A DNA stretch of 64,000 nt from assembly GCF_015244705.1 (NCBI RefSeq), contig NZ_JABCQF010000002.1, forward strand, positions 1 to 64,000, in the 5' to 3' direction. The DNA comes from Gluconobacter potus (GTDB lineage Bacteria > Pseudomonadota > Alphaproteobacteria > Acetobacterales > Acetobacteraceae). The number at the start of each line of letters is the position of its first letter. Position 1 is the stretch's first letter. The position numbers and the translations under genes are program-made. Under the pieces are notes generated by a model, which was not told where the DNA came from, did no database searches, and worked only from the letters and a program-made list of their open reading frames with translations. Positions 35 to 111 of the stretch are shown here, one piece after another.

Positions 35-111
35 CGCGGGGTGGAGCAGCCCGGTAGCTCGTCAGGCTCATAACCTGAAGGCCGCAGGTTCAAATCCTGC
101 CCCCGCAACCA
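35..111 (+). tRNA. Initiator tRNA-Met (anticodon CAU), CCA encoded
   Basis: A full cloverleaf can be drawn. The acceptor arms 35-41 and 101-107 pair except for the C1-A72 mismatch that marks initiator tRNAs. The anticodon loop reads CTCATAA with anticodon CAT, the T-arm contains GGTTCAAATCC, and ACCA is encoded at 108-111. The 3' half is the integration site of the mobile element to its right. Confidence 0.96.

Follow-up and report, generated by a model that had tools for sequence, protein, structure and literature searches.

The large serine recombinase (LSR) gene near the start of this contig raises the question of what becomes of a recombinase whose reading frame crosses its own attachment site. 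The window analysed here is the whole stretch of 64,000 nt from Gluconobacter potus (contig NZ_JABCQF010000002.1, positions 1 to 64,000, forward strand). An earlier note on this DNA had proposed that the LSR carries a 9-residue tail when its element is integrated and a 13-residue tail, with a stop at 44168-44170, when the element is circular. We re-derived the reading frames and found both the coordinates and the residues of the two tails to be correct. The features at the two ends of the element are as follows.

35-111, forward strand: tRNA-fMet (CAT), the integration target, complete at attL (ARAGORN).
68-97, reverse strand: host-derived final codons and stop of the integrated LSR, GFEPAAFRL-stop, outside the 14-bp shared core.
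68-1765, reverse strand: LSR gene, 565 aa in the integrated form; Pfam Resolvase, Recombinase and Zn_ribbon_recom.
98-111, no strand: att core on the tRNA side (attL), 14-bp TGCCCCCGCAACCA.
114-123, no strand: attP dyad arm GATACCGACA, inside recombinase codons.
44168-44209, reverse strand: free-form C-terminal segment RSPRYRQSLTLAV and TAG stop; tail family type ii, with 10 equally long members.
44190-44199, no strand: attP dyad arm TGTCGGTATC, inside free-form tail codons.
44210-44223, no strand: att core on the distal side (attR), 14-bp TGCCCCCGCAACCA.

The encoded protein has the domain order of an LSR, with Resolvase at residues 4-145, Recombinase at 177-287 and a zinc ribbon at 320-372 (Pfam). 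In the integrated form it ends in ...VVAGAGFEPAAFRL, and its final nine codons and TGA stop (68-70) are the antisense strand of tRNA-fMet. Because the stop codon sits at 68-70, a predicted LSR message overlapping tRNA-fMet in antisense follows from the gene layout. When 44223 was rejoined to 112 by script, the LSR frame read ...VVAGA-RSPRYRQSLTLAV-stop, adding 13 residues before the TAG at 44168-44170; the segment at 44168-44209 is in the LSR frame only if the element is circular or adjoins another copy. As read from the DNA, the LSR frame yields two C-termini, chosen by the state of the element. Directly upstream of the LSR lie toxin-antitoxin-like genes (1793-2486, reverse strand; judged by eye). 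Such genes also precede the LSR at L213, L216 and L219, where the annotations are PHD-type antitoxin, RelBE and MazEF, and at L216 a gene annotated as tRNA(fMet)-specific endonuclease VapC lies just downstream.

The 14-bp core occurs in the window only at 98-111 and 44210-44223, with no other copy at one mismatch or fewer, and a mean expectation of 0.04 rules out a chance match. The predicted circle junction joins TGCCCCCGCAACCA to CTGATACC. The attP reconstructed in this way has two inverted half-sites around a short core, as LSR sites do: 21 of 30 half-site positions match around a centre between 44212 and 44213 (equivalent to 100/101), whereas 0 of 2000 shuffles reached 21 and the best reached 19. 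Strand exchange within GGTTGCGGGG, that is at or above 101, is suggested by relatives L026 and L027, in which the host bases ATA or ACA come directly after GGGG. Backed by the attP dyad, by a second element of the same genome and by natural phage pairs, the predicted junction is more than a guess.

Between the two cores lie these genes of a 44-kb conjugative element (10 window proteins scanned).

21951-24158, forward strand: relaxase, DUF3363 (Pfam Relaxase match just below the cut-off).
28445-30430, forward strand: TraG/VirD4-type coupling protein.
31052-40087, forward strand: mating-pair genes, T2SSE/TrbB-, CagE_TrbE-, TrbL-, CagX- and TrbI-like.

Because relaxase, coupling-protein and Trb-type type IV secretion genes lie between the cores, the element is, judged by its gene content, an ICE. 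It also contains an IS91-type transposase (15979-17181, reverse strand). The second element, of about 67 kb on contig C9, has an LSR 53% identical to that of the window, is arranged in the same way at a further copy of this tRNA, and has an outer flank 96% identical to the window's. Its LSR has the integrated tail GFEPAAFRL and a predicted circle tail of CNQCSLRLVSGFVERIAA. At unoccupied sites in relatives L011 and L012, tRNA-fMet is followed by a flank 77% and 71% similar, respectively, to the window's distal flank, including a terminator.

Recombinase 3' ends in relatives

We compared 82 loci carrying related LSRs, 70 of which have a readable core; at the other 12 the core is absent, cut by a contig end or broken. 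The LSR frame runs through the core at 68 of the 70 and stops before it at two (L061, L091). Of the run-through loci, 65 do so in the VAG frame and three in another frame (L077, L078, L101). A GFEP- or GFQP-like end was found at 46 of the 68, and, wherever the tRNA is complete, these tails follow the sequence of the host tRNA-Met. 23S and 5S genes precede the tRNA beside the LSR in two of three relatives scanned (L054, L041), and the third, L047, has no rRNA within reach. A different tRNA-Met is occupied by a group that has IAG instead of VAG (L193, L203), and LSR ends from viral contigs (VAEEGFEPPTQGL, VAGEGLEPPTRGL and VVGGGIEPPTCGL) resemble, judged from sequence, the antisense of other tRNAs; ARAGORN found no complete tRNA at eight viral loci, several of which are trimmed at the stop.

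Three arrangements at these loci stand apart. At L023, L029, L056, L057, L087, L095 and L102 the LSR is followed by only the 3' half of a tRNA, from anticodon loop to acceptor end, and then by foreign DNA, as if the tRNA had been displaced by another element with a core starting at the anticodon loop. At L147, L148, L150 and L156 a single att region is approached from both sides by LSR genes with their 3' ends close or overlapping, the second gene being of a class ending in VAGPRNQ or similar; some elements may have one recombinase at each end. At L017 (the C9 element), L030, L158, L171 and L224 the LSR contains, upstream of its real core, a second and degenerate one (LVAGNRTLRSRR..ASLVAGA; LVAGTCNRRKL..ATLVAGA), as though the gene had taken in a former P-arm tail.

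The LSR 3' end also appears to serve the host transcript, through a terminator whose native counterpart has been carried to the far side of the element.

119-161, forward strand: intrinsic terminator facing the tRNA, within the LSR 3' end; hairpin 119-152, T-rich run 153-161; -23.4 kcal/mol.
44248-44288, forward strand: native terminator that follows the tRNA site, now 44 kb away because of the insertion; -18.2 kcal/mol.

The first lies just past the tRNA, inside the LSR codons NTPG..TGVSV; equivalents of the second follow directly after tRNA-fMet at the unoccupied sites of L011 and L012. Since the native terminator is now 44 kb away and a strong hairpin stands just past the tRNA, the element appears to provide the transcript ending in tRNA-fMet with a substitute terminator. 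A tRNA-facing terminator of -8 kcal/mol or better is present at 57 of 70 loci, which are related and hence do not count independently, versus 15 of 70 on the opposite strand and an average of 14% in control stretches taken from these same genes. Sites were weak or absent at L056-L059, L062 and L064. By eye, several unrelated stem sequences occupy about the same place, so structure rather than sequence seems to be kept.

Both states of close phage recombinases occur in natural records. In the Rhizobium phage RR1-A genome record the LSR ends in MLGGRVVAG-ERFEQSPQIILGRFVA (..GRFVA), whereas an 88% identical LSR in the IMG/VR prophage contig L228 ends in MLGGRMVAG-EGLEPPTRGL, the contig ending with the stop codon. 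Likewise, the LSR of Microcystis phage Mae-JY30 ends in GGRVVAE-VRSNPSPPFRFGVIAA (..VIAA) and that of L236, 71% identical to it, in GGRVVAE-EGFEPPTQGL. In both pairs the sequence change is located at the core. In Mae-JY29, a third phage record, the VAG core is absent and the end is ..QRRRA. Twelve plasmid records comprise four with P-arm tails (Paracoccus species P. aminovorans ..PKLAA, P. versutus ..GSLAA and P. denitrificans ..FRTAA, and Komagataeibacter ..ERLVA), seven ending in FRL, six of these adjoining tRNA-Met, and one of the second LSR class (..ASCA). Plasmid copies of the RR1-A kind end in ..EPPTRGL (L320), ..GGRCV (L319) and ..EFVC (L321), neither of the latter two fitting a tag.

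Selection on the free-form tail and its C-terminal bias

Where the core is followed by sequence other than a tRNA, the frame runs on into the P arm, and 56 such arms gave 53 distinct tails. Sixty stretches were picked among the matches listed whose match ended before residue 565, a choice that enriches for non-tRNA ends, and 35 of them were used. We excluded those that read into tRNA-like sequence (L134, L158, L159, L170, L176, L178, L180, L182, L187), those cut by a contig end or masked (L162, L167, L169, L172, L179), those that belonged to the second LSR class, were out of frame or were broken (L145, L149, L151, L152, L153, L155, L157, L192), the other-strand genes in L147, L148, L150 and L156, L141 (stop one residue past the core) and L185/L186 (..PVAC, though in frame). 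L154 was kept despite an upstream frame that is not recombinase-like. A further 17 loci were added from a second set, leaving out the VAGPRNQ class (L075, L077-L079), L044, L061 and L091; of a third set, L101 was left out (another frame, ending in IAA). The second LSR class (L075, L077, L078 and parts of L147-L156) has no conserved tail.

Many of the tails fall into families of fixed length, namely type i (..NQRYLRLVDREIPRLAA), type ii (13 residues, the window type), type iii (..FEKIFSALA) and type v (..FVERLAA), with a group iv sharing the end ..HQLAA; several types, such as i and v, look homologous. Across all tails the length after VAGx ranges from 11 to 49 and sequences differ widely, the extreme C-terminus being the commonest common feature, and several tails have basic and aromatic residues close to it on the core side (RYRQ, RYLRL). 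Tail type pairs with recombinase type where the pairing is readable or can be inferred from contig order (window-type LSR with ii, C9-type with v, SQVSL-type with i, SQVQM-type with iii). In tandem arrays the LSR ends in the tail that belongs to the following element, as in L033, a window-type LSR with a C9-type tail; because LSRs there carry a neighbour's tail, the tails are partly interchangeable. One tandem-array-like region (G092 contig C1, 1118850-1206355) has three LSR genes in one orientation before a single tRNA-Met, the two farther from the tRNA with the next element's free-form tails (types i and ii) and the proximal one with a tRNA tail.

Beyond codon 12, in-frame pN/pS was 0.31 for type i (10 arms), 0.60 for type ii (10), 0.47 for type iii (14) and 0.26 for type v (6). 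Beyond the attP half-site the other two frames gave 0.78-2.18, and after the stop any frame gave 0.70-1.36. These values are pairwise counts among related arms, uncorrected for relatedness; the two type iv pairs were too few to be used. Selection is weakest in the window's own type ii, where the 0.60 covers 5 codons. Codons 4-12, which form the attP half-site, show no protein-level selection (in-frame pN/pS 0.81-1.60; type i is lower in another frame, 0.32), as expected if the DNA is constrained as a half-site, and for want of such selection we did not use them as evidence. Mean identity per 15-nt block falls across the stop from 0.75 to 0.48 and 0.37 in type i, from 0.44 to 0.28 in type ii, and from 0.72 to 0.44 and, two blocks on, 0.30 in type iii; type v drops more gradually. 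Stop codons stand at one fixed position with varying identity (TGA/TAA/TAG 5/3/2 in type i, 2/2/6 in ii, 13/1/0 in iii and 2/0/4 in v), and tail variation is greatest at codon position 3 (Fisher p 1.5e-4). By these measures the conservation is coding and the free-form tail is a selected protein segment in relatives. Translation of the free form would be the simplest explanation for conservation across so many elements, though neighbours read the tail in tandem copies. That the protein should change on excision, as the earlier note held, is therefore well supported, the free-form tail being a conserved, selected peptide in relatives and not chance read-through.

The last residue is Ala in 35 of the 53 distinct tails (35 of 54 if the L185/L186 tail is counted), and 18 end in Ala-Ala. 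The remainder end in I (7), V (3), L (2), S (2) or, once each, G, T, F and C; none is charged. Reading these arms in their other two frames gives 9 of 97 ends in A and 1 of 97 in AA, and among 48 mechanically chosen control ORFs of the window 9 end in A and 1 in AA. Compared with the other frames, Fisher's test gives p values of 5e-13 (A) and 1e-8 (AA), which overstate the case because of relatedness among the tails. Judged by eye, the Ala-ending tails belong to about six unrelated types, and AA-stop is spelled with nine different 9-mers. Among 24 non-tRNA-like, untrimmed viral-contig ends picked by eye from 66 rows, 14 end in A and 7 in AA. The frame test and the other-frame comparison led us to reject the view that the tails are noise.

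The host ssrA (tmRNA) tag is ANDNSEVLAVAA, and ClpX is listed as recognising C-motif-1 (xAA) and C-motif-2 (RRKKAI) ends (PMC9775585, table). The free-form tails of most relatives resemble such ssrA/ClpX tags in sequence. The window tail, ending in LAV and not in Ala, is a weaker match; type ii tails end in AI, AV, AL, VI, PV, SI, LI or QI with basic residues upstream, and come at best nearer to C-motif-2. Some tails fit no tag (..VFRF in L190, ..PVCC in L191, ..LIDRL in L181, ..GRTAS in L063, ..TAWS in L089, ..PVAC in L185/L186 and ..EFVC in L321), and L141 stops one residue past the core. In AlphaFold models of the integrated form and of L031, which has a 29-residue free-form tail, the last confident helix spans 519-533 and pLDDT is below 50 beyond it; L031 has a low-confidence helix at 573-584, and overall confidence is modest (pTM 0.36). 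An exposed, disordered C-terminus of this predicted kind is what a C-terminal tag needs.

What the exchange of tails may do

On balance, we think it probable that a degradation tail of the free form is exchanged, on integration, for a neutral tail encoded by the tRNA. Because the LSR gene crosses its own attachment site, recombination would exchange its last codons. In the free circle, the P arm would supply a short, selected C-terminal peptide that is ssrA/ClpX-tag-like in most relatives; on integration, strand exchange would remove that segment and the tRNA antisense strand would supply a neutral tail (GFEP..FRL) and a stop. The LSR would then be short-lived in a free element, whether this has just been excised or has just entered a new cell, and longer-lived in an integrated one, a difference that would limit re-integration and stray recombination and let a little enzyme build up for excision. 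Expression from the circle, degradation and the effect on recombination are all steps that we infer.

The earlier note had envisaged a built-in switch between integration and excision activity. The selected tail and the presence of both states in records of close phage recombinases speak for a switch, whereas the catalytic shift fared less well, given a predicted disordered tail (residues 533-565) and free-form ends that mostly resemble proteolysis tags. A direct catalytic effect is still the main rival, if an unlikely one: the free-form tail would be selected for catalysis or assembly, contacting DNA or the C-terminal domain at attP and favouring integration, and the tRNA tail would permit excision. 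Such a role would account for a tail selected as protein, for the pairing of tail types with recombinase types, readable or inferred from contig order, and for the basic and aromatic residues near the core. It fits poorly with a pLDDT below 50 in the tail and some 20 preceding residues, with tails so diverse in length and sequence that they mostly share only the extreme C-terminus, and with tandem arrays that swap tails between types. The predicted disordered extension and the tag-like C-termini make a switch of lifetime likelier than a switch of catalysis.

The polarity could also be the reverse, with a stable free form and a tRNA-encoded tail that destabilises or inactivates the integrated enzyme. 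An integrated element would then stay quiet, and in this layout tRNA transcription also opposes the LSR gene, but we hold this to be quite improbable: GFEPxxFRL ends in Arg-Leu, we know of no tag resembling it, and it is the free-form tails that mostly look like the end of the host's ssrA tag. Least probable of all is a by-product, in which an LSR merely lacking a stop before attP reads whatever lies downstream into roleless tails; a tRNA-set integrated tail and members with odd or no tails (L141, L061, L191) suit it, but in-frame purifying selection, fixed length within types, homology ending at variable stops, the Ala bias and run-through at 68 of 70 readable cores speak against it.

Together with the exchange of a degradation tail, the layout could amount to a widespread integration sensor in LSRs, comprising attP across the gene end, a self-destructing free LSR, a stable integrated LSR and a substitute tRNA/rRNA terminator; the sequences leave us evenly divided on this. 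Rated jointly with the sensor, and so at the same even chance, is its proposed range: ICEs and phages of Alphaproteobacteria and a Microcystis phage relative, at tRNA-Met and at other tRNAs judged from the tails. The separation of integration from excision in serine-integrase elements is usually ascribed to a directionality factor, and an enzyme lifetime that depends on the DNA state of the enzyme's own gene would be a second, self-contained layer of direction with no extra regulator. Annotated recombinases ending in GFEPxxFRL would then represent the integrated state only, the free-form protein would appear in databases only if sequencing had caught a free or tandem copy, and genome-engineering constructs of such integrases may carry the wrong tail. 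A mobile element here uses the antisense DNA of a host tRNA as coding sequence.

Comparison with known systems

Large serine integrases of the phiC31/Bxb1 kind have the Resolvase-Recombinase-zinc ribbon order, a coiled-coil region and inverted attP half-sites, and the domain order, coiled-coil region and half-sites are as here; in the well-known members we know of no gene change on integration. In the archaeal SSV type attP also lies inside the integrase gene, but there integration cuts the gene in two, whereas here the enzyme stays complete and only its tail changes.

Titles, abstract openings and passages of the literature, with few subscription journals and partly among the matches listed, yielded nothing similar beyond papers on integration-dependent immunity, and a search on LSR tail motifs gave no match. 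The phiAP1-like integrases of acetic acid bacteria are of the tyrosine type and use tRNA-Ser, unlike the LSR and tRNA-fMet here; their authors propose longer attB recognition and, in the passages on these enzymes, draw no tie to integration state (PMC8566455). Many attP sites of genomic islands complete the target gene (PMC12884075), and as described there the tRNA 3' end is rebuilt at attL, as here; compared with those tRNA-restoring islands, the present element seems in addition to carry, within its recombinase codons, a terminator that replaces the native one. In KplE1 the integrase promoter overlaps attL (PMC2951348), which likewise couples an att site to integrase expression, but the account is of transcriptional autoregulation at a promoter and not of a changed C-terminus.

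The nearest parallel is the integration-dependent immunity of mycobacteriophage BPs, in which attP lies inside an ORF near its 3' end and integration removes a tag, and whose integrase is said to carry a C-terminal proteolysis signal (PMC4557955, PMC6109161, PMC9635641). The position of attP within the 3' part of an ORF is shared; the loss of a tag on integration would be shared if the free-form tails, tag-like in most relatives but ending in LAV in the window, act as tags. In BPs the switched protein is the repressor, shortened by integration, and the passages on the system describe no change of the integrase. By analogy, the present arrangement would work like the BPs repressor switch (PMC4557955), but it is not a member of the BPs system because attP lies in the recombinase gene and not inside a repressor gene. 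Here, in ICEs and phages that come mainly from Alphaproteobacteria, the LSR itself would be switched, with antisense codons of the tRNA taking the place of its tail.
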